DNA of 27,646 nt from a virus, in the IMG/VR virus record IMGVR_UViG_3300046655_000160, positions 1 through 27,646 of that record; one strand, given 5' to 3'. How positions within the stretch are numbered: the stretch's first letter is position 1; every line of letters begins with the position of its first letter. Shown one piece after another: positions 11,384 through 26,810 of this stretch. The notes beneath the pieces were generated by a model. The model was not told the DNA's origin. It ran no database searches and saw only the letters and a list, made by a program, of their open reading frames with translations. Made by a program: the position numbers and the translations under genes.

Positions 11384-11829
11384 CTCTCTCCCCTCCCATA
11401 TGCCGCAATGAGCAAACTCTCGGCGCGATGCTCGTCGCGCTTGCGCTTCAGCCGCAGAGCTAAATCAGGAAACCATTGCTGCGCCTGACGGCGGGCGGCG
11501 TCCTTATCCTTTGGCAAATTCATGCTCGACTTCCACTTAGCGGGCCGCACCTCGCTGTACGGGTGGCCAGACAGGGCGGCAGTCGTGATGATTTGGCCAT
11601 AGGCAAACCCCAGCTTAAACACTGACACGACGCCCTGCTTTGGCATAGCCTGTTGTTTTTCCAGCCAAATATGCTGCACAGGGCCGGCGCTGTTGATGAT
11701 GTCGAGCAGCGCAATCACGTCGACGCCGCCTTCCGTGTAAACCGGCAGGTCGTGCACCTCGGCCCAATCTTCACCAATCAGCGCAACTCCGCCGGTGCGG
11801 TAGCCGGGATCAATTCCAATCGTAATCAA
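11380..11829 (-). CDS. RuvC-like Holliday junction resolvase
   Basis: The 149-residue protein has the RuvC/RNase H fold signature. ITIGIDPGYRTGGVALI gives the first catalytic Asp (D7) and HIWLEKQQAMPKQG the second acid (E57). VVSVFKLGFAYGQI follows, and KRDEHRAESLLIAAYG at the C-terminus supplies the last acids (D132, E137). It would cut branched DNA before packaging. The length suits phage RuvC forms. It overlaps the preceding small regulator by 20 bases and the exonuclease by 4. Confidence 0.85.
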   Translation of the reverse strand: MITIGIDPGYRTGGVALIGEDWAEVHDLPVYTEGGVDVIALLDIINSAGPVQHIWLEKQQAMPKQGVVSVFKLGFAYGQIITTAALSGHPYSEVRPAKWKSSMNLPKDKDAARRQAQQWFPDLALRLKRKRDEHRAESLLIAAYGRGER

Positions 11830-11977
11830 GATCCACCCCCGCCTCGTCCAGCATTGCGGCGACCGCTCGCTCGACGAGCAGCGACACGCTCATGCGGGTA
11901 TTGCGGCTGTGCTCTTTGAGTGCCAAGGCGATATCTTCACGGATCCTTGGCCCGATTTGCTTTAAGTCTCTAGACAT
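11810..11977 (-). CDS. Small ribbon-helix-helix-like DNA-binding protein
   Basis: I choose the ATG at 11977 (MSRDLKQIGPRIREDIALAL) because GGAGGG stands four to five bases before it; earlier possible starts would place the coding region over the box at 11992-12007. The 55 residues give a short beta strand (KQIGPRI) and two helices (REDIALALKEHSRN and SVSLLVERAVAAMLDEA), the pattern of Arc/MetJ/CopG regulators. As first gene of the replication operon, next to the CtrA-like box, it may control its own operon or the divergent lysis cassette. Confidence 0.6.
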   Translation of the reverse strand: MSRDLKQIGPRIREDIALALKEHSRNTRMSVSLLVERAVAAMLDEAGVDLDYDWN

Positions 11978-11991
11978 GATGCCCTCCATTT

Positions 11992-12007
11992 GTAACGCAG
12001 TGTTAAC
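11992..12007. promoter_or_regulatory. CtrA-like box E in the replication/lysis divergent region
   Basis: GTAA (11992-11995), seven bases, TTAAC (12003-12007) has one mismatch to TTAA-N7-TTAAC. It lies 15-30 bases before the start of the leftward replication operon and about 95 bases before the rightward lysis cassette. No clear -10/-35 pair stands out in the rest of this gap. Confidence 0.4.
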
Positions 12008-12101
12008 AGCGCAATGGTCAGGGCACAAGCCCCCGGCTGAAATGTTTTAAAATTGTTTTCGGTGTGCTAAGGTGAGGTGAAACTAGAATACGGACACGCA
12101 A

Positions 12102-12326
12102 ATGGACATGGATGTTATGTGGAATGGGCTTCTGTCCATAGTTATTGCTGGGGTCGGCTTCTGGGTTAAGAGCTGGGTCAGTGAAGTGACGCGCCTGCAA
12201 ATACTCATCAACCGCACGCGCGAAGAGTATGTGACCAAGAGCGAGAGCAGCGCCCAGATGGACCGCGTAATGCACCGGCTCGACGGCCTCGATGCCAAGA
12301 TAGACAGGTTGATTGAGCGCAAATGA
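12102..12326 (+). CDS. Membrane-anchored coiled-coil protein, possible inner-membrane spanin
   Basis: The 74 residues give one N-terminal membrane segment (MWNGLLSIVIAGVGFWVKS, about 6-24). A charged helix with heptad spacing follows (VTRLQILINRTREEY, then MDRVMHRLDGLDAKIDRLI). This layout fits an i-spanin or a small holin-like membrane protein. The next gene overlaps by 4 bases and encodes a lipoprotein, the arrangement of an i-spanin/o-spanin pair that fuses the two membranes in the last step of lysis. The ribosome-binding site is weak. It is the first gene of the plus cassette. Confidence 0.6.
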   Translation: MDMDVMWNGLLSIVIAGVGFWVKSWVSEVTRLQILINRTREEYVTKSESSAQMDRVMHRLDGLDAKIDRLIERK

Positions 12327-12559
12327 TGCGCTTATTCCCAGCACTTCTACTGCTCGGCTGCGCAGAGATCAAAGCACCAAGCCCTCTTGTTCTGCCGTCA
12401 GTTTGCATGGGAGACGAGCATTGTGAGGCTAGAAAAAATGCAGAAACATTGGCTGCGATGGGCTTTCATGACGCTGGCCTTCGGGTTATGTGTGACGATG
12501 CTAACGTCCGAGATGTTCTGGAGGTGGAATGCGAACCAGATGCGCTGCCATATCCCTGA
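12323..12559 (+). CDS. Small outer-membrane lipoprotein with a cysteine motif
   Basis: The 78-residue frame has a lipoprotein signal: MMRLFPALLLLGC, with the lipobox LLGC and Cys13 as lipidation site. It continues AEIKAPSPLVLP, which is Pro-containing like short o-spanins. The second half carries a Cys-rich segment, C-x2-RKNA (about 36-42) and GLRVMC (about 53-58). The same pattern occurs in the secreted protein encoded next (C-x2-RKDA and GLSVMC), so the two share a domain. That resemblance also shows this frame, not the alternative 12438-12602 frame, is coding. It overlaps the upstream gene by 4 and the downstream by 31 bases. Confidence 0.6.
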   Translation: MMRLFPALLLLGCAEIKAPSPLVLPSVCMGDEHCEARKNAETLAAMGFHDAGLRVMCDDANVRDVLEVECEPDALPYP

Positions 12560-13287
12560 TCTTGCTCGGGTCTCTATGCTATGCCCAAGACGGGAGCGTT
12601 GAAGGCGACTTCAATAGCAACACTGGCAACAACAACAGCTCCGTCGAAAGCAATAACACCAACGAGACTTATCAGAACACCTACAATGGGCCGGGCAGCT
12701 CACCGGGTTCACAGCCCCCACCAACTGCGAGTGCGCCGGCTGTCATGGGTGCGGGTGGACAAGACAGTTGCCTCATGCCTAAGACCAGCGGCATACAGGT
12801 CAGCTTATTTGGCATTGCCCAAGGCAACATGGAACAAGATCCAGAATGCAATAGACGCAAGGATGCTAGGCTCATGGGTCAACCGCAGCCGCATGGCCTT
12901 GGATTGCAAATATCTGGGCTGTCAGTAATGTGCGCAGCGCCCCATGTGTTCAAGGCAATGGCCATGTCGTCAACGCCCTGCCCGATCTACAGCGTGACCG
13001 AGGCTCGCATTTTGACCGGGCGTGACGCATATGAGGCCATGCGTTTAAATCCCGAGATTTATGTGGTAGGATACGCGCAAGATCAGAGCTTCTGGGATGC
13101 GTTTCTCAGAATGGACTTAAAGGAACTGCCAAATGTTCAAACGGCTGACAACAATCGCCCTACTCTCTCTGAGCGTTTCCGGCGTACACGCTCAACAAAC
13201 AACGGAAGTGGGCGACCTTCAGGACGCGGCGACAGTGATCCAGCAGCAAGTGGAGCTGGCGGCTCTGATGGCTTACGCAGCGACTGA
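12529..13287 (+). CDS. Secreted Asn-rich cysteine-motif protein
   Basis: The ATG at 12529 follows GGAGG at four bases, and residues 1-20 form a signal peptide (CAAISLILLGSLCYAQ, cleavage after AQ likely). The mature part has an Asn/Ser/Thr-rich stretch (about 22-55), a Pro-rich linker, then a domain with AVMGAGGQDSCLM, C-x2-RRKDA and GLSVMC, ending near SSTPCP. I recall similar motifs in unassigned exported proteins of marine myoviruses, but this is memory and not a search. The final 51 codons overlap the next gene out of frame and look like low-complexity Arg/Ser/Gly. Export to the periplasm suggests a host-envelope role near lysis. Confidence 0.65.
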   Translation: MRTRCAAISLILLGSLCYAQDGSVEGDFNSNTGNNNSSVESNNTNETYQNTYNGPGSSPGSQPPPTASAPAVMGAGGQDSCLMPKTSGIQVSLFGIAQGNMEQDPECNRRKDARLMGQPQPHGLGLQISGLSVMCAAPHVFKAMAMSSTPCPIYSVTEARILTGRDAYEAMRLNPEIYVVGYAQDQSFWDAFLRMDLKELPNVQTADNNRPTLSERFRRTRSTNNGSGRPSGRGDSDPAASGAGGSDGLRSD

Positions 13288-13909
13288 TATGGCTGGTGCA
13301 GGCCAGATCATTGCGAACAACAGTCTGGATGAAGCAATCGTAACCAATGAAATGCTGGCGAATTATCAAGCGTCAGTTGACCTTGTGCTGGCCATGGACT
13401 TTTCGGAAGCCGAAACTGCGTCTGAGCTATTTGATGCTGAGTATGCTTCCGCAATGCTTGAGCTTGGCATGAGCGTTGACGAGTTGGCTGAGGCTAGTGC
13501 TGCACTTATGACTGTGTCGGTGGTGTCTGAAATGGCGGCTACGGCTGACACAAGGCCAGAGGGCTTGGCCTTGCAAGAGGTTTTAGCAAACACCACGATC
13601 ACTCAAGATCATGTTGACAACTATAATCAGGCGTTAAGTGCGGTCAGCGGCATGGCTCAGATTTCTGGCGCGTTCTTTGCAGCAAGCCAGAACACGGCTC
13701 TTACTAACAGTATTGATACATATGTGGCTGACAATAACATTGTAATTGGCGAGTACACATCTGTTGATTTTGTATTCGACACCAACGAGTACATCATTAC
13801 TTGGGGTGACCAGGGTGAAGGTACAGGCTGGACGCAGTACACGACTTCAAACAATAAAACCGCAGACGAGTTGTACGACCATGCCCAAAATCTATATGGC
13901 CAGCCGTAA
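13133..13909 (+). CDS. Second secreted protein, unknown function (258 aa)
   Basis: An AAGGA site eight bases before the ATG precedes a clear signal peptide, MFKRLTTIALLSLSVSGVHA, with cleavage expected after HAQ. The mature protein is acidic, Ala/Thr/Asn-rich and probably helical (AATVIQQQVELAALMAYAATD). Several SEAE/DELAEAS helices follow, then a beta-like C-terminus (YTSVDFVFDTNEYIITWG). There are no cysteines in the mature part, unlike the gene before it. It begins inside the 3' end of that gene (155 bases, other frame) and its TAA is directly followed by the next ATG. Function unknown; exported and expressed with lysis genes. Confidence 0.65.
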   Translation: MFKRLTTIALLSLSVSGVHAQQTTEVGDLQDAATVIQQQVELAALMAYAATDMAGAGQIIANNSLDEAIVTNEMLANYQASVDLVLAMDFSEAETASELFDAEYASAMLELGMSVDELAEASAALMTVSVVSEMAATADTRPEGLALQEVLANTTITQDHVDNYNQALSAVSGMAQISGAFFAASQNTALTNSIDTYVADNNIVIGEYTSVDFVFDTNEYIITWGDQGEGTGWTQYTTSNNKTADELYDHAQNLYGQP

Positions 13910-14329
13910 ATGGAAGACGTTGAAATCAAAGCTGGCGGGTTTACGCTTCGAGGTTGGTACATTGCTGCTGCTGTGCCTCTGTTATCTAGCCTTAGCGGCG
14001 GCATTTGGTATGGCTATGACGCGATTTCTAGGTTCAATGGATTAGAGGCGTCTGTAATCGAGGTGCTGGACGCGACTTCGCGAATACAAGCCATTGAGCA
14101 GACGCTGACGCAAAATAACGTGGCTGGGCTGAACACTCAGCTCACGCAAATCAGCACGCAGATGACCAACATTCTTGAGCAGCAGCGCACACTCATGGAC
14201 CTGCGGTCAACTGTTGAGAAGGGCGCAACTGTCACTGATGGCATTGGTGACAAGCTCGAAACATATGACATGGAAATCGAAGACCTTTGGAAGGCTTTCG
14301 ATGACCTAGTTAAAAATCCAATTAGATAG
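13910..14329 (+). CDS. Single-pass membrane protein with long coiled coil
   Basis: The frame starts immediately after the preceding stop (TAAATG), so it is probably translated by reinitiation. Residues 16-38 form a membrane segment (WYIAAAVPLLSSLSGGIWYG). The rest is a long polar helix (SRIQAIEQTLTQNNVAGLN, TQISTQMTNILEQQRTLMD) with heptad spacing and an acidic end. It resembles the first gene of the cassette in layout but is longer. It may be a spanin-like or scaffold protein for the two secreted products. No family recognised. Confidence 0.6.
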   Translation: MEDVEIKAGGFTLRGWYIAAAVPLLSSLSGGIWYGYDAISRFNGLEASVIEVLDATSRIQAIEQTLTQNNVAGLNTQLTQISTQMTNILEQQRTLMDLRSTVEKGATVTDGIGDKLETYDMEIEDLWKAFDDLVKNPIR

Positions 14330-14338
14330 GAGGCCGCC

Positions 14339-14641
14339 ATGAGCGACTATGACCTAAACGGCAACGGCGTGATCGACCCGGAAGAGAAGGCGATGATGCT
14401 TGAGGATCGCAGGATGCGGATCGAGGATGACAACGCCCAGCGCGACCAGTCTCGCAAGATGATCTGGTGGGTGTTGGCTGGCATGCTGGGATATCCATTC
14501 TTTGTGATCGTCTCCAGTTATCTCGGATTGGATGCCGCCTCTGACATCCTCGGATCAATGGCCACAATCTACTTCCCGGCGACCAGCTTAATCTTGGGCG
14601 CGTTCTTCGGGGCTAACGCTTATCAAGCGAAAAAGGATTAA
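14339..14641 (+). CDS. EF-hand loop plus two membrane segments (putative holin-like protein)
   Basis: A strong AGGAGG five bases before the ATG leads into a 100-residue protein. Residues 5-16 are DLNGNGVIDPEE, which fits the 12-residue EF-hand calcium loop at every key place (D5, N7, N9, G10, I12, D13, E16). A charged helix follows (MMLEDRRMRIEDDNAQ), then two membrane segments, about 41-63 (MIWWVLAGMLGYPFFVIV) and 71-93 (ILGSMATIYFPATSLILGAF). The two-segment layout fits a class II holin or a holin regulator. It sits directly before the recognised holin. Calcium control of a membrane lysis protein would be unusual; one loop without a paired second hand may bind weakly. Confidence 0.65.
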   Translation: MSDYDLNGNGVIDPEEKAMMLEDRRMRIEDDNAQRDQSRKMIWWVLAGMLGYPFFVIVSSYLGLDAASDILGSMATIYFPATSLILGAFFGANAYQAKKD

Positions 14642-14643
14642 CC

Positions 14644-15039
14644 ATGTTGCAGGCTCTCATTGGACCCGTGACGGGCATTTTAGATAAGTTCATTGAGGAT
14701 AAGGATCAAAAGGCGGCACTCGCCCACGAGATCGCAACCATGTCTGAGCGTCACGCTCAGGAGCTTGCAAAGGGTCAGCTCGAAATCAACAAGGCCGAGG
14801 CGGCATCTGGCTCAGTATTCAAGGGCGGCTGGCGCCCATTCATCGGCTGGGTTTGCGGCGTTGCTTTTGCATACCATTTCGTATTGCAGCCGCTCATTGT
14901 GTTTGGCGTAACCGCTGCGGGCGTCGAAATACCAGAGCTTCCGTCATTTGACATGGGCAGCTTAATGACTGTTATGATGGGCATGCTCGGGCTTGGCGGC
15001 TTGAGAAGTTACGAAAAGAAACAGGGGTTAACGAAATAA
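14644..15039 (+). CDS. Holin of the gene-transfer-agent/3TM family
   Basis: The 131-residue protein starts with an amphipathic segment (MLQALIGPVTGILDKFIED) and a charged helix (HAQELAKGQLEINKAEA). The conserved stretch FKGGWRPFIGWVCG leads into membrane segments about 66-92 (GWVCGVAFAYHFVLQPLIV) and 104-122 (MGSLMTVMMGMLGLGGL). The WRPFxGW motif and the GMLGLGGLRSYEK end are typical of the alphaproteobacterial GTA holin family. It permeabilises the inner membrane so the endolysin four genes on can reach the wall. AGGA precedes the ATG, and the stop overlaps the next start (TAATG). Confidence 0.85.
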   Translation: MLQALIGPVTGILDKFIEDKDQKAALAHEIATMSERHAQELAKGQLEINKAEAASGSVFKGGWRPFIGWVCGVAFAYHFVLQPLIVFGVTAAGVEIPELPSFDMGSLMTVMMGMLGLGGLRSYEKKQGLTK

Positions 15040-15293
15040 TGGCTACACCATCGAAGGGCAAAGCCCGCGTTAAAGTCACGGCCAGCGGCAAGAAGGTCAG
15101 CTACGGCCAAGCCGGTAAGGCGAAGGGCGGCGGCCCTCGGGTCAAGCCCGGCACGAAGAAGGGCGACGCGTATTGCGCGCGCTCTGCGGCGCAGAAGAAA
15201 AAGTTTCCAAGCGCCGCTAAAGATCCAAACAGTCCGCTCAATCTGTCGCGTAAGCGGTGGAAGTGCAGCGGCACCAAATCGAAGAGGAGTTAG
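15039..15293 (+). CDS. Small basic protein, 84 aa (conserved phage hypothetical)
   Basis: The product is very basic: Lys/Arg/Gly-rich, beginning MATPSKGKARVKVTASGKKV, with a centre GPRVKPGTKKGDAYCARSAA and two cysteines (about 46 and 76) that end in KRWKCSGTKS. The pattern resembles a family of short basic proteins found in tailed phages, often annotated only as a domain of unknown function. Nucleic-acid or lipid binding is plausible from charge. It is coupled to the holin gene and lies just before another small basic gene. Confidence 0.65.
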   Translation: MATPSKGKARVKVTASGKKVSYGQAGKAKGGGPRVKPGTKKGDAYCARSAAQKKKFPSAAKDPNSPLNLSRKRWKCSGTKSKRS

Positions 15294-15297
15294 TGGG

Positions 15298-15447
15298 ATG
15301 TCACTTTATAAAAACATTGCCAAAAAGCGCGCGCGCATCAAAGCCGGAAGTGGGGAAAAGATGCGCAAGCCCGGCGCCAAAGGAGCGCCAACGGCCGGTG
15401 CATTTAAAAAGGCTGCCAAGACAGCAAAGAAGAAGGCTAAAAAATGA
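15298..15447 (+). CDS. Very small basic protein, 49 aa
   Basis: An ATG at 15298, eight bases after GAGGAG, opens a 49-codon frame ending TGA at 15447, where ATGA couples it to the endolysin. The sequence MSLYKNIAKKRARIKAGSGE, then MRKPGAKGAPTAGAF and a Lys/Ala tail, is the pattern of a short conserved phage protein usually found beside lysis genes. It is below usual gene-calling length. Function unknown; the high charge suggests RNA, DNA or membrane-surface contact. Confidence 0.65.
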   Translation: MSLYKNIAKKRARIKAGSGEKMRKPGAKGAPTAGAFKKAAKTAKKKAKK

Positions 15448-16070
15448 GTGAAGCAATGAAACTGCTCCAGATGAAAATCGGAGTAACGGCTGACGGAAGT
15501 TTCGGCCCGAACACGGCGCGTGCAATCGCCAAGCATTACGAGCTGTCACCTAATCGTGGCGCGCATCTGCTGGGTCAGTCGCACCACGAGAGCGGCGGTT
15601 TTAAGCGCACGACTGAGGGTTTGTATTACTCAACGCCCGAGCGCATCCAAGCTGTCTGGCCGTCACGTTTCCCGACGGTCGAAAGCGCAGAGCCGTATGC
15701 CAAGAACCCGCAAGGTCTGGCAAACAAAGTTTACTCCAGCCGCATGGGCAATGGAGATGAGGCCAGTGGTGACGGCTTTGCGTTTGCGGGCAAAGGCTTC
15801 CTGCAACTCACAGGCAAATCAAACGTCAAGGCATTTGCGGCTGACATGGACTTGCCGGAAGTGCTTGAGTATCCGTCAAAGCTCGCTGACGAGTATGCTT
15901 TTGAGACGGCGCTGTGGTTTTTCCAGAAGAACGGCCTGTTTGCAATTGCTGATGACGGTGTAAGTGATGACACCATCAAGCGGATCACTCGCCGGGTCAA
16001 TGGAGGCTTCCACGGTCTCGAGGATAGGGTCATCCAGACCCGGAAGATCCACACTTGGCTACTGACCTGA
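15444..16070 (+). CDS. Endolysin, GH19 chitinase-like glycoside hydrolase
   Basis: The 208-residue protein begins with a short peptidoglycan-binding-like region (LLQMKIGVTADGSFGPNTAR, 7-26). A GH19 catalytic domain follows. The first catalytic Glu is in SHHESGGF (E49), a second in TTEGLYY (E58), then VYSSRMGNGDEASGDGFAF (97-115) and KGFLQLTG (117-124), which line the sugar groove. It cuts the glycan chain of peptidoglycan. There is no signal peptide, so it needs the holin to pass the inner membrane. The start overlaps the small basic gene by 4 bases. Confidence 0.9.
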   Translation: MSEAMKLLQMKIGVTADGSFGPNTARAIAKHYELSPNRGAHLLGQSHHESGGFKRTTEGLYYSTPERIQAVWPSRFPTVESAEPYAKNPQGLANKVYSSRMGNGDEASGDGFAFAGKGFLQLTGKSNVKAFAADMDLPEVLEYPSKLADEYAFETALWFFQKNGLFAIADDGVSDDTIKRITRRVNGGFHGLEDRVIQTRKIHTWLLT

Positions 16071-16074
16071 GAAA

Positions 16075-16458
16075 GTGCCTGCACAAGACCAGAAAGCCAG
16101 CGCGGCGGTAGGCCGGGCGGGGGAGCATTTAGCCCTTGCCCACCTGTCGCTCGCTGGCTACTCCTGCACTTTGTGCCAGATCAAAGACCACGACGCGTAT
16201 ATACAAACGGATACACGCACCCTGACCTTGCAAGTTAAGACCGCCAGCAAGATGTGCCGTAATAACAAGAAGTATAAATTCCACACGCCAAAAAGAAACG
16301 TAGATGCGTCAGATGTTTTTGCGTTTGTGTCCATTGACCTTGGTGCTGTGGTTTTTCGCCGGGGCGATGAGTTGTCCACAGTTACAACATATATTTCACC
16401 TAAAGAGTTTTTAAGCGAAAAGCCGTCGATGCAGAAAGTGCTCGACAGCTTCAAATAG
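16075..16458 (+). CDS. PD-(D/E)XK-fold nuclease-like protein (127 aa)
   Basis: Starting from a GTG at 16075, four bases after the endolysin stop and with only a weak GAGA upstream, the product has the order of a small PD-(D/E)XK nuclease. AVGRAGEHLALAHLSLAGY (11-29) contains a conserved Glu helix. A strand with Asp follows (DHDAYIQTD, about 38-46), then TLTLQVKTASKM (about 49-60), where Q-x-K replaces the usual E-x-K. A beta strand and Phe-rich segment close it. Known relatives include Holliday-junction resolvases and restriction-like enzymes. It ends the lysis cassette and has no export signal, so it acts in the cytoplasm. The exact start is uncertain. Confidence 0.6.
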   Translation: MPAQDQKASAAVGRAGEHLALAHLSLAGYSCTLCQIKDHDAYIQTDTRTLTLQVKTASKMCRNNKKYKFHTPKRNVDASDVFAFVSIDLGAVVFRRGDELSTVTTYISPKEFLSEKPSMQKVLDSFK

Positions 16459-16497
16459 TATCTTGCGCCCTCGATCGAGCTTGAATAGAAGGTCTGA

Positions 16498-16615
16498 GCG
16501 GGTGGCTATCATCACAAGTAAAATCGACTTTCCACGGGAATGGTCTAGTTGTTTAGCCTAGGATGACGTTGCTACAAATGTGCCAACATTAATAAAAAAA
16601 CCAACGGCCACCCGC
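16498..16615. repeat. Widely spaced perfect 9-base inverted repeat in the convergent gap
   Basis: GCGGGTGGC (16498-16506) and GCCACCCGC (16607-16615) are exact complements 100 bases apart, between the 3' ends of the plus lysis cassette and the minus operon. On the minus strand the right arm is followed by a T7 run (about 16594-16600). A 10-base palindrome CTCGATCGAG (16470-16479) lies just outside. No gene is seen in 16459-16621. The arms could close a structured RNA or be part of a bidirectional terminator, but no compact hairpin precedes the T-run. Confidence 0.4.
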
Positions 16616-16621
16616 ACGACT

Positions 16622-16732
16622 TCAAAATATTATTGCGACCAGCATCATCAGGCCAGCGCCGCTTCCGAAGCCGAAGACAGCTCCGACCAAGCCAGCGATG
16701 TGGATTTTGCGCTCTATCTCTTGGTCACTCAT
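16622..16732 (-). CDS. Tiny single-pass membrane protein, 36 aa
   Basis: The ATG at 16732 overlaps the stop of the upstream regulator gene (ATGA), and the frame runs 36 codons to TGA at 16622. The product MSDQEIERKIHIAGLVGAVF followed by GFGSGAGLMMLVAIIF has a short charged N-terminus and one membrane segment with Gly-rich small-residue faces, which often pack against other membrane helices. Translational coupling and sensible composition support it as real. A holin-like, antiholin or membrane-regulator role is possible; nothing decides. Confidence 0.55.
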   Translation of the reverse strand: MSDQEIERKIHIAGLVGAVFGFGSGAGLMMLVAIIF

Positions 16733-17526
16733 CCCCACACCTCCTCGAAGCAGTCGTCAAACGTGAATGGCGTTTTAGAAAACATCCAGCGCCACTGCTT
16801 TTTTACGCGCCCCTCTATATGTATATACTCGCGACGGCGGTGCAACTTGCCCTGCTCCCACATGCGCTTGAGGTAGCACGCGGCCCGCGGCACGCTCTCA
16901 TCGAGCATGGCTGCGGCCTCAGTGGCGGTGAATACGAAATCATCGTCCAACATATCCATGAGGCGGTTTATGTCCCGCACGACGCGCTCAGCTCGCTCCT
17001 CAGCCTCAACACCGGCCTTGCGGTGCGTCTCTTTATACGACCGACGTTCCGCCACTGGGAGAGGCCCACGTTTATCCGGCTGCTCCATGTGCATGCGCTT
17101 CTCGAACTCGAGCATGTCGTGGCCCAGCTTGATCTCACGCGCCACCTTGATGTCTGTCACGCCCTTTAGCTTCTGGGCCAGCTTCTGGTGCGGCGTCAAA
17201 GCTCTGGATCCTTTAAAGCTCGCCTCAACGCCTCGAGCAACGACGATAGCTCCTCCGCTGTCTGCTGGACGTATGGCTGGCCGCGCAACTTGCTTCGCTC
17301 CATCAGGACCGACGTCACCCGCTCGATCCGGCTCAATAATCTGTCGACTTTTGTGTCCACGACCCCCACTCCTTTTTACTACGTCAATGTTAAATTCTCT
17401 GACTGCATTATGCACAGTCGATGCCGAAATATTCAGATATCGAGCAATCTCGATATTGCACAGCCCGAACTCCGCACACTCTCTGATGCGCCGCACCATT
17501 TCACGTCGATCATACGGGCTCGGCAT
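16729..17526 (-). CDS. Two-domain helix-turn-helix DNA-binding protein, putative regulator
   Basis: I place the start at the ATG at 17526 (MPSPYDRREMVRRIRECAEF), preceded by AGGAGGA at five bases. Residues 10-45 contain a helix-turn-helix (IRECAEFGLCNIEIARYL, then ISASTVHNAVREF) like those of recombinase or transposase DNA-binding domains. The middle is basic and disordered. Residues about 195-240 form a winged-helix-like unit (FTATEAAAMLDESVPRAACY, then MWEQGKLHRRREYIH). No catalytic residues of a recombinase are visible, so regulation of phage or host genes is the likelier role. It overlaps the zinc-finger gene by 17 bases and the tiny membrane protein by 4. Confidence 0.65.
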   Translation of the reverse strand: MPSPYDRREMVRRIRECAEFGLCNIEIARYLNISASTVHNAVREFNIDVVKRSGGRGHKSRQIIEPDRAGDVGPDGAKQVARPAIRPADSGGAIVVARGVEASFKGSRALTPHQKLAQKLKGVTDIKVAREIKLGHDMLEFEKRMHMEQPDKRGPLPVAERRSYKETHRKAGVEAEERAERVVRDINRLMDMLDDDFVFTATEAAAMLDESVPRAACYLKRMWEQGKLHRRREYIHIEGRVKKQWRWMFSKTPFTFDDCFEEVWG

Positions 17527-19278: not shown

Positions 19279-20940
19279 TTAGCGGGGTATGCTGAGCAGG
19301 CCACCTGTTTGGCGTGCCCCAGACTTCAAGGTGTCCAAGAGCATCTGAGTTGCCGCGCTGTTTTGCGTTGGCATCAGCAAATTTTGCACAGGACGTGACC
19401 GAAGGGTCTGCCTACCAGCGGCCGGCAAGGCGGCGCCTGCGGCCATACCTAGAGGCACAGCGAGCATAGGATCCATTCCGGTCTGAGTTGCTGCGTAAGC
19501 ACCACCACCAGCGCCTAAAAGTCCGCCACCGCCTGTCATCGTCCTACGGCCACCAGCTTGCACGGCCGGCATGGAGCTCACAACTTCCTCCGCAGCACGA
19601 CCAAGATTTGCCAACTCTGACCCAGTACCCAGAATGTACTGGTTGCCTTCTCTGTTGCGCAGCGCACCCGCCAACATGGCTGGAGAGATATAGCCGCCGG
19701 CGCTGTCTGACCCTCTCGTCTTGAGGGCGCGCATTGCGGTCAAATAGCTCCGGTACTGGTCGCGGGCCTGCATTAGCTCCGGAACCAGCTTCGGCTGAGA
19801 GCGGCGGACACTTTCAATCATAAAGTCGTCAATCACGCCATTCATCAGGAATGCGCTTTCATAGACCAGAGGGTCGTCAGTTCCGTTCATCACCTTGCGG
19901 AGACGAGACCGCATGTTTTGGATTTTCTTATTTGATATAGGCTTCCCGGCTGCGGCTGCGCTGAGGATTTCGTCATTCACGTCCACTAAAAACGGCGGGA
20001 CGTCTCCCGTTGCCGAGGTTCCAAGGTGGTCCTCGATAACTTTATTAGCGCGCACGGCCGTTTCGGTCGACGGCACGTCGTCGATGACGTTGTCCGCTCT
20101 GTCGAAAACTTTTCCAAGGCGATCCTTGACGTCTCGCATAGCCGCTGGAGTTGCCAAGGCGCTATCCGACCCCATAGTCTTCATGGTGGCCGTCGTTAAG
20201 GTGCGCTTAGTTTCAAGAGGCACCTCCATGCTTCCCTCAAGAGCCATGAGGCGAGGGGATCCGGATTTTAGGCCAGTAGTCATGGAGACATCAGCGTCTT
20301 CGAGTGTCCGCACCGCCTCGCCTCGAGCTGTACCCGGCTGCGTCAGACGAGCCTCTGGCCCCAACACTGCACGCTGCGTGCCCTGACGCAGTGCGCTCGT
20401 TGCAAACGGCGTTCCGAGTGCCGCGGCCAGTCTAGCTGGACCCTCCATCTCGGTTCCCTTAGTCATCTGACCGGCGGTTTCGCTTGCCAGTGCTGGAAGC
20501 ACTACTGAACGTGCAGCGCGAAGCGGCCCGCCATATGGCATAGCCAAGGCGCCGCCCACAAACTCTCCGGTCGTCTTGGCATACTCGCCCTCGGTTGTCT
20601 GTGGCTCGTATTCAGTAAATCCGCCAGTCATTCTCGAGACGAGCGGGAGTATTTGCGGGTCGAGGTTCATCTCTGGCGCGTCTTCCATGCCGCCGAACAG
20701 CATGCGTGACAGCATAGACGGACCCTCTTGGATTAGCGTAGCGCCCTGACCCAGCATATCAACGGTTTTAGCGAAGCCACTTAGACCGCCAGACGCACCG
20801 GACTTAACAACGTCCTCAGTCTTGCTCGGCTTTGCCTTCTGCTCCTCCGCAAAATACATATCCATGAGGCGGTCTCTGTCTGCGGTTCGTCCGTCGGCCT
20901 CGGCTTGCCGTGCTAATTCAAGTAGCTCTTGCAGGTCCAT
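19279..20940 (-). CDS. Internal virion/DNA-ejection protein, putative (553 aa)
   Basis: The last gene of the virion operon overlaps its predecessor's stop (TAATG). The first 40 residues form a charged helix (DLQELLELARQAEADGRTAD). Small-residue-rich stretches follow (TGEFVGGALAMPYGGPLRA), then a long helical middle (KKIQNMRSRLRKVMNGTDD). The C-terminal 90 residues are Gly/Ala/Met-rich and hydrophobic (TGGGGLLGAGGGAYAATQTG, MLAVPLGMAAGAALPAAG). Amphipathic, membrane-active composition and the position with two similar large proteins fit the ejected core proteins of P22/T7-type podoviruses. No enzyme motif is seen. Confidence 0.7.
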   Translation of the reverse strand: MDLQELLELARQAEADGRTADRDRLMDMYFAEEQKAKPSKTEDVVKSGASGGLSGFAKTVDMLGQGATLIQEGPSMLSRMLFGGMEDAPEMNLDPQILPLVSRMTGGFTEYEPQTTEGEYAKTTGEFVGGALAMPYGGPLRAARSVVLPALASETAGQMTKGTEMEGPARLAAALGTPFATSALRQGTQRAVLGPEARLTQPGTARGEAVRTLEDADVSMTTGLKSGSPRLMALEGSMEVPLETKRTLTTATMKTMGSDSALATPAAMRDVKDRLGKVFDRADNVIDDVPSTETAVRANKVIEDHLGTSATGDVPPFLVDVNDEILSAAAAGKPISNKKIQNMRSRLRKVMNGTDDPLVYESAFLMNGVIDDFMIESVRRSQPKLVPELMQARDQYRSYLTAMRALKTRGSDSAGGYISPAMLAGALRNREGNQYILGTGSELANLGRAAEEVVSSMPAVQAGGRRTMTGGGGLLGAGGGAYAATQTGMDPMLAVPLGMAAGAALPAAGRQTLRSRPVQNLLMPTQNSAATQMLLDTLKSGARQTGGLLSIPR

Positions 20941-22136
20941 TAACCTCTCCCCTCACGCATTCTTTTTAAAAATTCTGCGTCGGTTTCGCCCTGAGCGGGT
21001 GCGTCTGACGATGGATCAAGCCACGCTGGGCGACCCTTAAAGTGGCTGTCGAGCTGCGCCATCCCATCTTCGCTTGCGCCCCTGTAAAGTCCGCGGACGA
21101 TATTTTTATACCTGCGGTCAATTTTAGCCAAAGACTTTTTCACCGCGTCCGGCCCAAGAGCTAAGTCAAGTTTTGTGACGTCATCTAAAAGAATGTTAAG
21201 CTCTTCTTTATTCAGCGCGCCCATAGTTGCCCCGGTGGATTTTAGGTCTTTTAAAGTATCCAAGGCTAGGGTTGATCTCAGGCTATCGACTAAGGCTTGC
21301 GTTTGACCGGCTTGCGTGAATGGGACGTTACGCAAAAACATTGCCATCGGCCCGGTTGTCATTGCGGGGTCATTGTCGATCATTTTTATGATTTCTTGCA
21401 TAGTCTCCAATTGACCGGCCGCAGATGACGCCTTGCCCTCCATGCCCATTTGAGCTTTCTGCGCATCTTGCAGCGCCTTAATGCGCACCGCTATTCCCGG
21501 CGCCAAGTTGGGGTTTGCCACGGCCAAGCGAGACAGTCGCTCGATCTGCGCCTGTATGTCTCCAGCCGCGGCTTCGCCCGGTCCCATGATAGAAGTTAGC
21601 GCTTCTTGCTGCGCCTGCGCCGCCTGCGCCTTGCGCCCCATATCTATCTGGTCGTTGATCGCCTTGAGGGTGCTACTGAATGCGCTGCCCTCTTTGCCCT
21701 GCAACGCAAACCCGGCGTCTTTGATGGCGCCAAACGCCAACATCATGCGCTGCTGACGGTTTAAATTGCTGAATTGGTCCGTGGCCTCCTGCGGCCCGAA
21801 GAGCATGTCGCCCAACCCGCCTGACTTTGGAGCGGTCAACTGCTCCTGAGTTACCGCAGCCGCCGCTGGCACAGCGTTCATAGCTCCCGCCACGGCCGCT
21901 GGGTCCATAGAGCCGGCGTTTAGTGCGGCAGCCTGCGGATCGAGAGTGGTCGCCATGCCCTCTGCGACCTGAGCAGCGGAAACTGGATCTGGAAGCGCTC
22001 CGGGATCGACGTCGTCTTGGATGCCAAGCCTCCGACGCATGTCGTCGGTTGCGGGGTAACCCACCGCCAAGCCTGTGACATCCACGCCCTGACGGGCAAG
22101 CTCGTCGATGCCGAATTGTGTTAAACCACTTTCCAT
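20940..22136 (-). CDS. Internal virion/DNA-ejection protein, putative (398 aa)
   Basis: The 398-residue protein has an Ala/Gln/Gly-rich first third (DPVSAAQVAEGMATTLDPQA). A helical region rich in Gln and Ala follows (NDQIDMGRKAQAAQAQQEAL), then a C-terminal helical domain (LVDSLRSTLALDTLKDLKST, then GALNKEELNILLDDVTKLDL). The latter segment resembles phage internal/ejection proteins I have seen in P22-like and marine podoviruses. The C-terminus is charged (DAEFLKRMREGRG). Three bases separate it from the upstream gene. It would travel into the host with the DNA. Confidence 0.7.
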   Translation of the reverse strand: MESGLTQFGIDELARQGVDVTGLAVGYPATDDMRRRLGIQDDVDPGALPDPVSAAQVAEGMATTLDPQAAALNAGSMDPAAVAGAMNAVPAAAAVTQEQLTAPKSGGLGDMLFGPQEATDQFSNLNRQQRMMLAFGAIKDAGFALQGKEGSAFSSTLKAINDQIDMGRKAQAAQAQQEALTSIMGPGEAAAGDIQAQIERLSRLAVANPNLAPGIAVRIKALQDAQKAQMGMEGKASSAAGQLETMQEIIKMIDNDPAMTTGPMAMFLRNVPFTQAGQTQALVDSLRSTLALDTLKDLKSTGATMGALNKEELNILLDDVTKLDLALGPDAVKKSLAKIDRRYKNIVRGLYRGASEDGMAQLDSHFKGRPAWLDPSSDAPAQGETDAEFLKRMREGRG

Positions 22137-22139
22137 GTT

Positions 22140-23237
22140 CTAGCCCTCATACCCGATGCTCTTGCGCTTCGCGTCCATGAATGGACGTATAACCGCTTTC
22201 AAGAATGGCGCCTTGCGAATAACCGCGGCCACGCGCTCCCCGTGTTTCAAGTATGCGTTGCGGAACCATGCAGGCGCCCAGTCAAACAGCCACTCGCGGA
22301 ACTCAAGCCACTTAGGATCGCTGGCACCATACACCTCGCGAGCCACCCAGCATCCGGGGCCATAACCCATAGCGCCGAGCCCCTGACCAAACGAGCCAAG
22401 TGCCGATAGCGCATACCCTGCGCCGCCTTGGTCTTTAGTGCCCATAGATGTGCCGGACACGTTGGTCGTCCCGAAGCCCGCCGGTATCGCCGCGGCGGTG
22501 CCAGTGAGTGCGCCAAATTGCGACAGCGGAAACTGCAATCCCGCCAAATATTGCTCGTATGCCGCGTCCAGCTCCGCCTGCTGCGGCGCTCTCTCTGCCG
22601 AGCCTGCTGTGAGCTGAGCCCCGAGGCCAGCGAGCTGAGACTGCAAGCCTGCACCGGCGGTCGATGCCATCTGACCCGCTGCCTGCATGCGAAGCGCGTC
22701 TTCCGCTGCTGCACGCTGCGTGCCGTACTGCAAGCCCTGCTGCTGCAATCCCGCCAAAGTTTGGCCCATGCGGGCGTCGTATTCGCCTGCGCGCTCGCCT
22801 TGGAACACGTCGCGACGAGTGTTGCCGAATGCGCCGGCGCCAGTGATCTGGCCCTGCTCTGCGACGATGTCCTTGCCGCGCTGCCGCTCCATAAGCGCCA
22901 GCGTCGGGTCGATGACGCCCTGAGTAAACTGGTTTTGGTATTGCGCGATCTGCGCCGCCTGATCTTGCGGTGTGCGACCAGCGAGGCCAGCGTAAACGTC
23001 GCCGGCGGCGCCGTAAGCGTCAGCGCCAGTATCGAGCCCGCCATAACCCTGTATTGCTCCACGCTCCAAGTCGGTCATCCCGGCCACACGCTGACCCTCA
23101 TATGGCGTGAACTCGGCAGTGCCGATCTCGGTGCCCTTCGGGATTACGACGTTCCGCAGGAAGTCTTCTTGGAACTGAGGCATCGTCGCCTCGGTGGTGT
23201 TGTCGATAACTTCCGTGGTCTTGGTTGTGCTGCCCAT
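22140..23237 (-). CDS. Internal virion/DNA-transfer protein, putative (365 aa)
   Basis: The start is the ATG at 23237 (MGSTTKTTEVIDNTTEA), one base after the stop of the GNAT-like gene (TAAGATG); the longer frame has no site and would overlap it. The centre is very rich in Gln, Ala and Gly (AGLQQQGLQYGTQRAAAEDA). The C-terminal 60 residues are Trp/Arg/Phe-rich (CWVAREVYGASDPKWLEFRE, WAPAWFRNAYLKHGERVA), a conserved end found on several phage internal proteins. Role as an ejected channel/core component is inferred from composition, neighbours and this tail. Confidence 0.7.
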   Translation of the reverse strand: MGSTTKTTEVIDNTTEATMPQFQEDFLRNVVIPKGTEIGTAEFTPYEGQRVAGMTDLERGAIQGYGGLDTGADAYGAAGDVYAGLAGRTPQDQAAQIAQYQNQFTQGVIDPTLALMERQRGKDIVAEQGQITGAGAFGNTRRDVFQGERAGEYDARMGQTLAGLQQQGLQYGTQRAAAEDALRMQAAGQMASTAGAGLQSQLAGLGAQLTAGSAERAPQQAELDAAYEQYLAGLQFPLSQFGALTGTAAAIPAGFGTTNVSGTSMGTKDQGGAGYALSALGSFGQGLGAMGYGPGCWVAREVYGASDPKWLEFREWLFDWAPAWFRNAYLKHGERVAAVIRKAPFLKAVIRPFMDAKRKSIGYEG

Positions 23238-23238
23238 C

Positions 23239-23706
23239 TTATAGCTCCATCTCGTAGTGGACGTAGGTCTTCTTGAAGAAACCACACTTGTCCAAGTATT
23301 TCTCAAACCCGAGGCGTCCGTCTGCCTCAATCCCGCTCAGCTCTGCTTTACGCGCTAACTCCACAATCGCCTCCAGAGCCTCTTGCATCCACTCAGCAAT
23401 TCGAGAGCCACCCAAGTGCTCAATAAATAGAGTTTGACGCATGGGGTGCTGCATGACCGCAGTGCTGAACGCAGCGACAGGCTCACCCGCAATATAAACG
23501 ATCCACATAACGGACCGTCTTTCTCGAAAGTTTGCCAAAACGCGCTCCACAGGGACATTTCTCTCGTCTCTTTCTATACTGGCGGCCAGAAACGGCATGC
23601 CGATCTCAATTCCGTGGTCGATGTCCTCTGCAACGGCAGGAATGACCTCAACATTGTCTTGATGCAACTTTACCACGTTATCCATATTTACGCCAGCCTC
23701 ACCCAT
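23239..23706 (-). CDS. GNAT-fold acetyltransferase-like virion-operon protein
   Basis: The protein has a GNAT-like order: a beta strand WIVYIAGEPVAAFSTAV (about 68-84), LFIEHLGGSRIAEWMQEALE around the acetyl-CoA-binding helix (about 93-112), then ARKAELSGIEADG and LGFEKYLDKCGFFKKTYVHY. The usual Q/R-x-x-G-x-G/A loop is reduced to LGGSRIAEW, so activity is uncertain. T7 gp13-type proteins in podoviruses share this fold and act as virion parts. ACGAGG four bases before the ATG at 23706 supports that start, which overlaps the preceding gene by 8 bases. Confidence 0.65.
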   Translation of the reverse strand: MGEAGVNMDNVVKLHQDNVEVIPAVAEDIDHGIEIGMPFLAASIERDERNVPVERVLANFRERRSVMWIVYIAGEPVAAFSTAVMQHPMRQTLFIEHLGGSRIAEWMQEALEAIVELARKAELSGIEADGRLGFEKYLDKCGFFKKTYVHYEMEL

Positions 23707-24355
23707 GTAACCTCGTGATCGACAGAGTTGACGACGGAATGCCGGGAACTGGCGACGCCGCTGCCGTGTGGTTCAAAAACCCCTGAGTGCTGTCCACCAT
23801 GAAATTGACCTCAAGATAGTCGCCGGCGCTCACTTCAAAAATTTGTGTGCGCGACACCACGAGAGTTGCGTTGTTCTGGTGTAGCGCAGTGGTCATCGCC
23901 CCATTAGTGGCTGCAATTCCATTCACGCTGGGCCAAAAATAGAAGTGAACTGTGCTGCTCGATGTGGATGAGATCTGCGCTGAGAATGACAAGACGTATT
24001 CTCCGCCCTCCTCGAATACGATCCGCGACGCAGGAGTGCCCTGAGTGATACCCTCGTTGCCGACAGGCGCGTCATAGGTCAACTTATATGCAGTGTTTGC
24101 TGAGGCCGCAGTGACGTCCGCCGTCTTAATAAAATTTGCGTGACCATCTTCCAGCACAATCTGACGCCACTCGCCATTTTTAGACACGACAGGATATCCC
24201 TCAGCCTCGTCCCAGAGCAGCGTGCCATTCTCAATCGCCGCCGCGCCGGACGGTTTAAAGACGAGCTGCGTTAGAGCCCGCCTCGTCCATGTAGAGAATG
24301 TCCGCGCCCAGTCGAATATGTCGGGTCCGACGCTGGGTGGAATTGGAGACGTCAT
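23699..24355 (-). CDS. Virion appendage protein with jelly-roll-like domain (218 aa)
   Basis: The 218 residues begin with an Asp/Trp/Arg segment (PDIFDWARTFSTWTRRALTQ) that may anchor it to the tail. A beta-rich part follows (EGGEYVLSFSAQISSTSSST, VHFYFWPSVNG, NATLVVSRTQIFEVSAGDYL) with alternating hydrophobic residues typical of a C1q/TNF-like jelly roll, often used in phage head or tail decoration. It is coupled (ATGA) to the tail-nozzle gene. Fold is an inference from pattern only. Confidence 0.55.
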   Translation of the reverse strand: MTSPIPPSVGPDIFDWARTFSTWTRRALTQLVFKPSGAAAIENGTLLWDEAEGYPVVSKNGEWRQIVLEDGHANFIKTADVTAASANTAYKLTYDAPVGNEGITQGTPASRIVFEEGGEYVLSFSAQISSTSSSTVHFYFWPSVNGIAATNGAMTTALHQNNATLVVSRTQIFEVSAGDYLEVNFMVDSTQGFLNHTAAASPVPGIPSSTLSITRLHG

Positions 24356-25830
24356 CTCTTGCCGCCCGCAACTGCGTCGACGCGCATGACACCCACCCGC
24401 CAGTCAGCGAGGCGCGCGCCCTCGACGCGCATTCGAGCCTGACGACCAGAGAAGCGAACAGACGTCGGGTTTGCCATAGCAAACGGCCCGTGAGACGTCT
24501 CCGACCCGTTGGGATATAGACGCGTTTTGAACGTGGCTGAGACGTCGCCCTGTGTCAACTCGTCTGGGATCAGTCTGGTGACTTTGACTAAGTTGTCGCC
24601 TGAGCCAATTGAGAACGGCCCAGTCTCCGCAAACACTGTGGCGCCGTCGTAGTTTAGGCCGACCTCGTGCTCATACATCGTACCCCCCGGAGACATCATC
24701 AGTGGGTATCTAAAAACTCCGCGGTCGACGCCGCATGTGCGTGACAGCTCACCTGTAGCCCAGTAGCCCTGCTTGTAATCAAAGCTAACGTAGCGATCAA
24801 TTTCGTTTGAGTTAGAGCTACAGTAAAACCACCAGACTTCTCCCTGCTGGCCTAAAGATGCACTCCAGCACTTACTAATCTGCGAGCGGTTTATGTCCCC
24901 GAATATGTAGTCTTTTACGTCACACTCAAGCTCTTGGACGTTGGACCCGTTGTAGAAGAAGAACGACTTGTGGCCCATCCAGAATGTCCCGACGTCCACA
25001 CTAGAAACAGCCTTTCTGGAAGCCAGACCCGACGCCGTACTAATCCTCTCAGTCGAATACACAAATGGCGCCCCGACATATGTCATGCGGTGCGTATCTA
25101 AGTCAGTGAATATTAAAGTCTGACCACGCCCGCGCTGTGCCGCCATGATTTGTCCGGCTGTTTGCAGTATCTGAGAGCCGGCCTGATTTGTGCTTGATGG
25201 CGTCCATGTGGTGATGTCTTCTTGGTCGGACCACTGGACAACCCTCGGGTCTCCGCCCGCCCCAAGGCAAAACAAAAAGCGCTCCTCACTTACAATTACT
25301 CCAAGGTTATTGGTGGGCGCATTGGGTATTACTGTAGCCGCTGTCGCCGTGTTTCCAGTCCACTGGTATGCCCTGCCGTCGTCTACGCTGCACGCGACAA
25401 GGTAGTTTCCAAAGTTATCTAGAGACCATGTGGTCGCCTCTTGGTAATTCCCGGTGTCTGGCCGCTCTGTGCCGTAGAAAGACGTCCCATAGGTTGAATA
25501 CCCATAGCCAGTGTTGATAGCCGCGTCTTGAGTGCCGGCGGTTAAGCCTGCCGGTGTTATGGTGTAGACAGTGCCGGCAGAGTTTGTGACGTACAAATTG
25601 TTATAAGTCCCCATAGCCGCCCAGCGAGAGCCATTGCTATCCTGCCACGCGTGCATGCTGCGAGCTTTTTCTGATACCGCACTTGCAGTGCGTTCACGCC
25701 AACCACCCACCGGACGCAAGGATGAGCCGAGCCAGCGGACGAGGTTACCATCCCGCCAGCGACCTGCGGCTTCGTATTCTGTGCCGTTCCGATACATTCC
25801 CGCAGGAATTTTGAGCGGTATTAGTGCCAT
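24352..25830 (-). CDS. Tail nozzle/stabilisation protein (P22 gp10-like), 492 aa
   Basis: The true start is the ATG at 25830 (MALIPLKIPAGMYRNGTEYE), overlapping the preceding stop (TGATG); an upstream ATG gives an implausible Arg-rich extension. The opening, with AGRWRDGNLVRWLGSSLRPV soon after, is characteristic of the phage stabilisation family that closes the portal channel of P22-like podoviruses. The body is beta-propeller-like, with repeated aromatic/Gly strands (MHAWQDSNGSRWAAMGTYNN, VQWSDQEDITTWTPSS, WWFYCSSNSNEIDRYVSFDY). Length is as expected. It lies after the adhesin and before the appendage gene. Confidence 0.8.
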   Translation of the reverse strand: MALIPLKIPAGMYRNGTEYEAAGRWRDGNLVRWLGSSLRPVGGWRERTASAVSEKARSMHAWQDSNGSRWAAMGTYNNLYVTNSAGTVYTITPAGLTAGTQDAAINTGYGYSTYGTSFYGTERPDTGNYQEATTWSLDNFGNYLVACSVDDGRAYQWTGNTATAATVIPNAPTNNLGVIVSEERFLFCLGAGGDPRVVQWSDQEDITTWTPSSTNQAGSQILQTAGQIMAAQRGRGQTLIFTDLDTHRMTYVGAPFVYSTERISTASGLASRKAVSSVDVGTFWMGHKSFFFYNGSNVQELECDVKDYIFGDINRSQISKCWSASLGQQGEVWWFYCSSNSNEIDRYVSFDYKQGYWATGELSRTCGVDRGVFRYPLMMSPGGTMYEHEVGLNYDGATVFAETGPFSIGSGDNLVKVTRLIPDELTQGDVSATFKTRLYPNGSETSHGPFAMANPTSVRFSGRQARMRVEGARLADWRVGVMRVDAVAGGKR

Positions 25831-26810
25831 CAGGATGTCGCTCCGTAAATTGTGCCGTTGTTTGTCAGCGTGGCTGTCCCAGAGATAGCAGCGCCGCCTG
25901 CGCCCGCTCCCGACCCAGCACCTGATAGCCCCCAACCACCTCCGCTGACTGTCGTGTTGCTCGCCTCAAGTATAGACCCGCCCTCTCCGCCCGGATTTAG
26001 TCCGCCAGTGCCGCCTACCAGCGTCCTATTTCCAGATGAAAGCACGCCGCAGGGAGTGCTGACGGTTCCAGATGCCGTGCAACTCCCGAGCGTGGCATTG
26101 CCAGATCCCGCGGAGGCGCCCTGCCTGCCTCCAGCGCCCCTAACGCCAGAGCCGGTGACAACACACGACAGTGGGATAGGGTAAGGCGTGCCTTCGCAAC
26201 TGACGCTAACAGAGCTGCTGAGCCCTTGCGAGAACGTGTACGATCCACCAGCCGCGCCAGCTTGCCCTGGAGCCGCTTGGCCAGCACCACCGCCGCCTTG
26301 GTCGCCACCTCCGCCGCCTCCACCGCCAGCTATAAATGCGCCAGAGTTATTGGTTATGGATACGGTGTCGCTTGTGGTGACCTGCAACGCCGGTCCGCCA
26401 TCAGACCCAGCGCCACCGCCTTGGCCCGTGATGTTGCCGCTATTGACGATTGTAAGGCCGCCGGGGAAGCTGCCGGCGACAACAGCCCCGCCTGTCGATG
26501 TGCTGTTAGAGTATAGAGTGGTGCCCGCGTTGATGTTGGCCACCAAGGGGGTCTGACCGTCCCAGCCATCCGACACTGCGAGCGCGCGGATATCTGCGCT
26601 CTGAGTGTCGCTAGATATGCTGAAAGAGTATTGATTAGAGGCGCCGTAGAAGTCGCCAACGCTAATTTCTCCAGACGCCGGGACACCAGAGGTGCCGGCC
26701 GGAACAAACGACCCGCCGCTGTAATACTCTGACAGGCTGACCGGGTTAGTGCCGCCAAACTCTGACTGTATTTCGGATAACTTTATTGCTCCGGATGTCT
26801 GCAGAGCCAT
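25830..26810 (-). CDS. Glycine-rich tail adhesin, gp38-like (326 aa)
   Basis: The N-terminus (MALQTSGAIKLSEIQSEFGG, then NPVSLSEYYSGG) is the usual opening of phage adhesin/fibre-tip proteins. From about 115 on, runs of Gly appear (GGGGGGGGDQGGGGAGQAAP, GGTGGLNPGGEGGS, GWGLSGAGSGAGAGGAAI) separated by variable segments with Thr, Ser and four Cys. This alternation of glycine-rich strands and short variable loops is how T-even gp38 adhesins present receptor contacts. It is likely the receptor-binding protein and a fast-evolving region. The start overlaps the previous stop (TGATG). Confidence 0.7.
   Translation of the reverse strand: MALQTSGAIKLSEIQSEFGGTNPVSLSEYYSGGSFVPAGTSGVPASGEISVGDFYGASNQYSFSISSDTQSADIRALAVSDGWDGQTPLVANINAGTTLYSNSTSTGGAVVAGSFPGGLTIVNSGNITGQGGGAGSDGGPALQVTTSDTVSITNNSGAFIAGGGGGGGGDQGGGGAGQAAPGQAGAAGGSYTFSQGLSSSVSVSCEGTPYPIPLSCVVTGSGVRGAGGRQGASAGSGNATLGSCTASGTVSTPCGVLSSGNRTLVGGTGGLNPGGEGGSILEASNTTVSGGGWGLSGAGSGAGAGGAAISGTATLTNNGTIYGATS

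Follow-up and report, generated by a model that had tools for sequence, protein, structure and literature searches.

Two adjacent genes in a 27,646-base stretch of DNA from a marine phage (an IMG/VR virus record, here called the window) encode a predicted lipoprotein, A, and a predicted secreted protein, B, which, judged from their sequences, are almost certainly homologous and have a helical four-cysteine domain in common. This duplicated envelope domain is a real and conserved feature, located within a four-gene cassette with the order A-B-C-D. The sequence-only reading of the window had proposed such a domain in two topologies, and this is borne out by the adjacent occurrence of the predicted lipid-anchored and the predicted secreted form across many phages.

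Gene locus and predicted envelope proteins

The cassette belongs to a plus-strand gene block (12102-16458) flanked by minus-strand genes (Table 1), in which a small basic protein is encoded between the holin and endolysin genes. The open reading frames from which the lipoprotein and the secreted protein had been read were confirmed with identical boundaries. Neighboring genes overlap: B starts within the final 31 nt of A (12529-12559) and C within the final 155 nt of B (13133-13287), where the low-complexity tail of B is overprinted on the start of C. A scan of 11700-16800 for promoters and terminators gave sites no more numerous than in shuffles. Pairwise dN/dS values, where dS was defined, were well below 1 for all four genes and indicate apparent purifying selection on A (about 0.06-0.18) and B (0.05-0.09), with the caveat that several pairs have nearly saturated synonymous sites. 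Elsewhere in the window, the regions 20940-23330 and 24352-25935 weakly match a DNA ejection protein and a protein released on infection, and a structural family is matched strongly; by that family, the nearest isolate would be Octadecabacter Antarctic DB virus 2, whose record yielded no reported relative of B.

Table 1. Position and properties of features in the window
Feature	Position	Strand	Description
Gene U	12102..12326	+	74 aa; N-terminal hydrophobic helix and coiled coil; phrog_462-like; adjoins A in the window
Gene A	12323..12559	+	78-aa predicted lipoprotein with four-cysteine domain
A signal peptide and lipobox	12323..12361	+	12 aa; lipobox LLG-C13
A four-cysteine domain	12404..12532	+	C28 to C70; spacings 5, 22, 12
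Gene B	12529..13287	+	252-aa predicted secreted protein, same domain as A
B low-complexity stretch	12589..12726	+	Asn/Ser/Thr/Gly-rich, after the signal peptide; basis: composition
B four-cysteine domain	12769..12981	+	C81 to C151; spacings 25, 27, 15; C2-C3 insertion
Gene C	13133..13909	+	258-aa predicted secreted acidic protein; net charge -32
Gene D	13910..14329	+	139 aa; N-terminal membrane helix and long coiled coil
100-aa protein	14339..14641	+	Weak EF-hand-like N terminus; hydrophobic segments
Holin (GTA_holin_3TM)	14644..15039	+	Pfam PF11351, E 2.8e-25; phrog_3427
Endolysin	15444..16070	+	phrog_181, E 5e-47

Protein A (78 aa) begins with MMRLFPALLLLGC and continues with AEIK. Its signal peptide is very short (12 aa), and since this holds for the family, only 30 of 69 A proteins pass a strict lipobox pattern; the lipobox cysteine is invariant in the A-family alignment. 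The short lipobox signal peptide would place A on the outer membrane, and the alanine after the lipobox cysteine would suit sorting to this site. The signal peptide of B (252 aa) is predicted to be cleaved between SLCYA and QDGS. Because A, B, and C carry signal peptides and D has a membrane helix, the products should have their site of action in the host envelope, as opposed to the virion, and an envelope location of all four is very likely. D resembles an inner-membrane spanin in layout, and it matched neither a lysozyme nor any other lysis family in PHROGs and Pfam. Its homologues CRP-810 gp51 and CRP-207 gp73 carry the GenBank label lysozyme, which is probably wrong. No relation was detected between U and D.

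Homology of A and B

The pairwise comparison by BLASTP gave an E value of 4e-4 with 13/47 identical residues (28%) and a 5-residue gap, and the Smith-Waterman score of 50 was reached by 4 of 5,000 shuffles of either protein. At the family level, the profile comparison by hhalign was significant (probability 97.3%, P 2.5e-11, score 62.4), a stronger relationship than the one previously claimed, and separate alignments yielded a similar result (96.9%, P 1.6e-10); the best of 100 column-shuffled decoys scored 20.9 and reversed B 11.0. Furthermore, a profile built solely from lipoproteins recovered all 80 marine B loci drawn from the matches listed in the IMG/VR profile scan (E about 1e-5 to 1e-2). 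Chance or convergence of short cysteine-rich proteins is hardly credible as an explanation, for although the pairwise score is modest by itself and about half of the 78-aa A lies outside the alignment, the decoys fall far below the profile-profile result, the four cysteines follow an identical order in both proteins, and the A-only profile picks up B orthologues across marine viruses. The two proteins are ancient paralogues built on a small, helical, and probably disulfide-rich domain.

The cysteine motif that the sequence-only reading had described for the two proteins is real, but only the middle two of four shared cysteines had been caught (C28, C34, C57, and C70 in A; C81, C107, C135, and C151 in B), and the motif of B is C-x2-RKDA (CNRRKDA) instead of C-x2-RRKDA. 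The reported 5-residue difference is likewise present in the pairwise alignment, but it is confined to this B lineage, as an insertion.

Conservation and fold of the four-cysteine domain

Over the fetched loci, the four-cysteine pattern is kept in 69/69 distinct A proteins, all with 22 residues between C2 and C3, and in 196/201 B-type proteins with spacings of 25, then 22 or 27-28, then 15 residues. Of the five exceptions, four are truncated or disrupted; the fifth retains the four cysteines with an altered motif. The C1-C2 and C3-C4 spacings are shorter in A than in B-type proteins. The 22-residue C2-C3 spacing of A is also that of pelagiphage-type and bacterial B proteins, and the longer form (27-28) represents an insertion in the roseophage-type B lineage that includes B of the window. 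Either the split of A and B would predate the insertion in B, or A would derive from another 22-residue copy.

AF2 models of modest confidence (mean pLDDT of 68 for A and 53 for B) placed three helices at equivalent positions, i.e., residues 34-45, 49-57, and 60-70 of A and 105-115, 124-134, and 138-146 of B. Judged by the helix ends, disulfides might tentatively be assigned to C2-C3 and C1-C4. A Foldseek search of the A model against BFVD returned B-family proteins near the top, e.g., from MedDCM-OCT-S28-C10, a result that is not independent, since B segments were present in the alignment behind the A model. Against the PDB, the best match of the A model was no better than E 7; searches of A and B in Pfam, NCBIfam, and the PDB gave no useful match, and no solved structure resembling the domain was found. 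In PHROGs v4, phrog_20531, a family without an assigned function, matches the B relatives of CRP-207, HTVC023P, Mosig, and MW202481 over the domain (E 1e-8 to 3e-18). The same stretch of this profile aligns with A of the window (E 0.05) and with A of CRP-810 (E 0.007), and B of the window showed no match up to E 1. The family gives no information on lipoprotein A or on C and D.

Distribution in marine phages

The domain is widespread, with at least 592 stretches confirmed in the IMG/VR profile scan (592/600 candidates among the matches listed). Relatives of B are encoded by the Roseobacter phages CRP-207 and CRP-810, two Manatee Spring phages, one uncultured Mediterranean phage, and the pelagiphages HTVC023P, HTVC033P, HTVC115P, HTVC202P, Baldr, and Mosig; a 328-kb viral contig (L128) also carries the B family. 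A was detected solely in the roseophage-type group. The order A-B-C-D was found in 83/83 loci with A and enough downstream sequence, i.e., every such A was accompanied by B, C, and D, always in this order. What had been suggested as a two-part system is not one of two genes; the conserved unit comprises four. The A gene of CRP-810 (L042:3579-3836), located in the gap between gp54 and gp53, is unannotated. A term search of the literature on these phage groups, as far as its texts were covered, returned no function for the genes A to D.

Pelagiphage-type contigs commonly carry B and lack A, and the profiles for C and D detected neither gene in 50 viral B-without-A loci with both flanks. In pelagiphages, the gene after B often encodes an unrelated secreted protein of about 450 aa that has an acidic stretch, and a membrane coiled-coil protein comes next. 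The 450-aa protein is encoded near B in 72/90 loci (pelagiphage-type, e.g., L048:4466-5851 and L052:4314-5699); its middle is rich in Glu and its C-terminal part is conserved, in some cases with a weak carbohydrate-binding match in the protein. C showed no homology to the 450-aa protein (P 0.36), and the similarity of D to the pelagiphage coiled-coil families was weak (best E 3e-4 at 38% probability) and located over the membrane helix. In some pelagiphage-type contigs, a 55-aa lipoprotein-like protein of another family is encoded just upstream of B (L081:3400-3564 and similar) and may take the place of A without being related to it.

Cellular homologues

In bacterial genomes, a profile scan detected the domain in alphaproteobacterial chromosomes (Hyphomonadaceae/Caulobacterales), e.g., in a Hyphomonadaceae chromosome recorded as complete, where the surrounding 12 kb contain no evident phage genes (L160), and the profile comparison with B was highly significant (P 2.5e-23). 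A narrower search with roseophage-type B found no relative in bacterial genome contigs; the broader profile was the one that revealed the cellular genes. The cellular form is rare in an even sample of the class, where 1/385 genomes, namely the query genome, was positive, and 15/60 genomes of the family of the query genome carry the domain. Many other contigs from the bacterial scan appear, by their pelagiphage-like proteins, to be phage contigs binned into genomes. Two contigs binned as bacterial or archaeal MAGs (L138 and L147) encode B-type proteins in which very long Asn/Thr-rich repeats precede the domain.

The cellular proteins (L157, L160, and L225-L243) have, like phage B, a signal peptide and the four-cysteine domain, in their case with 22 residues between C2 and C3. 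Between the signal peptide and this domain lie long repeats that are Asn/Gly-rich or collagen-like; the C-terminal region is either a tail in which no known domain was recognized or an OmpA domain, exemplified by the peptidoglycan-binding PF00691 of L157 (E 7e-16). An OmpA peptidoglycan-binding domain was not detected in B of the window. Cellular relatives of this kind may explain the label OmpA family protein of CRP-810 gp53. Several genomes harbor tandem pairs in which an OmpA-like C terminus is present in only one of the two genes; in L236-L243 (G423, G438, G445, and G447), a four-cysteine gene with collagen-like or NG repeats precedes another whose product ends in an OmpA-like region. These pairs of one anchored and one free copy parallel the phage A-B pair, but they differ from it in their long repetitive stalks and in an OmpA anchor that binds peptidoglycan in place of a lipid. 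Accordingly, the combination of a free and an anchored domain exists in phages and cells, and this is the best support for the idea of two topologies.

Possible roles of the cassette

A two-part outer-membrane system is plausible, and the chances of a physical A-B complex seem slightly better than even. As the best overall explanation, we tentatively propose, somewhat short of an even chance, an envelope-spanning complex of A to D that aids outer-membrane disruption. B, with its Asn-rich arm, domain, and tail, would stay in the periplasm, where A would keep it at the outer membrane via the shared domain, and the acidic C together with the inner-membrane coiled-coil protein D would complete a bridge between both membranes late in infection. 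At lysis, the complex would help to break the outer membrane and thus do the job of spanins with unrelated parts.

A spanin-like outer-membrane step of lysis is the preferred function, a possible purpose of the cassette that we hold with clearly limited confidence. It is favored by the position beside the holin and endolysin genes and by the spanin-like layout of D. The location of the cassette in CRP-810 and CRP-207, where it lies away from annotated holin and endolysin genes and among tail-fibre, capsid, or terminase genes, speaks against it, and the earlier tie to a lysis region is mixed, the genes of the window lying in the holin/endolysin strand block. Further points against the proposed explanation are that pelagiphage-type contigs with B have neither A nor C and have to do without the two, that the signal peptide of A is so short, and that the AF2 confidence is modest. 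Two-component spanins (Rz/Rz1) resemble the cassette in combining, within a lysis block, a lipoprotein and a coiled-coil protein of the inner membrane. The two genes of a spanin pair usually adjoin each other; D is present at every A locus with sufficient room, but B and C intervene between A and D. Unlike Rz/Rz1, A has a helical four-cysteine domain with a secreted paralogue, its constant neighbors are B, C, and D instead of U, and the genes do not form a single adjacent pair. Neither A nor D matched a spanin family in PHROGs or Pfam. Small phage lipoproteins are not unusual, as is known from spanins and Llp/Cor, and the earlier remark that the arrangement is unusual for a podovirus lysis region does not hold for the lipoprotein as such; the unusual element is its homologous secreted partner.

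Other roles fit parts of the data, with an envelope or surface structure and superinfection exclusion as the main rivals. A part of A to D in assembling or remodeling such a structure in infected cells, for instance a fibre or coat rich in Asn that A would anchor, is rather unlikely. In the cellular homologues, long repeats (NG-rich or collagen-like) precede the domain and OmpA sometimes follows it, which is consistent with such a structure, as are the Asn/Ser/Thr-rich arms of pelagiphage-type B, which are very long in some contigs, but the low-complexity arm of B in the window comprises only about 45 residues and the cellular proteins are themselves without a known function. The type VIII (curli) secretion genes of pelagiphages (PMC9599517) are likewise encoded by marine phages, with a predicted action at the outer membrane of the host; the cassette differs from them in that the export pore CsgG was found in 0/31 viral records that carry it, some of which may be fragments, with positive control genomes. 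A link to curli was hence rejected.

Superinfection exclusion is also unlikely. A would in this case be a small outer-membrane lipoprotein that jams a phage receptor from the periplasm, like T5 Llp or T1/phi80 Cor, and B, C, and D would assist it or act as extra plugs. Llp, a lipoprotein of the periplasm, binds FhuA and contains a Cys11-Cys58 bond (PMC9586334); A resembles it in size, predicted lipid anchor, and the disulfides that may form. Moreover, the CRP-810 cassette is located a few genes after a tail fibre gene. However, Llp and Cor act alone, a clear difference from A with its invariable B-C-D neighborhood, the domain did not match any known superinfection exclusion family, and A of the window lies within the holin/endolysin block.

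An ordinary two-component spanin pair of U (inner membrane) and A (outer membrane), with an incidental likeness of A and B, is distinctly improbable. U has an N-terminal membrane helix and a coiled coil, A begins at the end of U, U of CRP-810 shows weak spanin matches (phrog_13/89, E about 0.1), and cysteines as well as diverse architectures are common among spanins (PMC6139136). Gene order nevertheless rules out U-A as a constant unit: U adjoins A in only 27/92 loci and is therefore no constant part of the module, the gene upstream of A in CRP-207-type phages mostly encodes a soluble 86-aa protein, and no lipoprotein directly follows U in three examined phages of CRP-901/902, C72C1, and MJing1, which also encode U.

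Implications for marine phages and their hosts

Pelagiphages and roseophages are among the commonest marine viruses, and to our knowledge little has been established about the ways in which they open or remodel the envelopes of the alphaproteobacteria they infect. A bacterial envelope domain might have been recruited by marine alphaproteobacterial phages and turned into a trans-envelope machine of four genes that serves the outer-membrane step of lysis or another takeover of the envelope by a mechanism unrelated to known spanins, a broader scenario that we regard as doubtful. The current analysis suggests the correction of two database labels, i.e., OmpA family protein for CRP-810 gp53 and lysozyme for the D homologues. 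A widespread marine viral domain gains a defined cysteine pattern and a cellular relative in envelope proteins of Hyphomonadaceae/Caulobacterales, and for one group of its carriers a fixed four-gene neighborhood is now defined. Since the cultured isolates CRP-207 and CRP-810 carry the module, its function is testable there.
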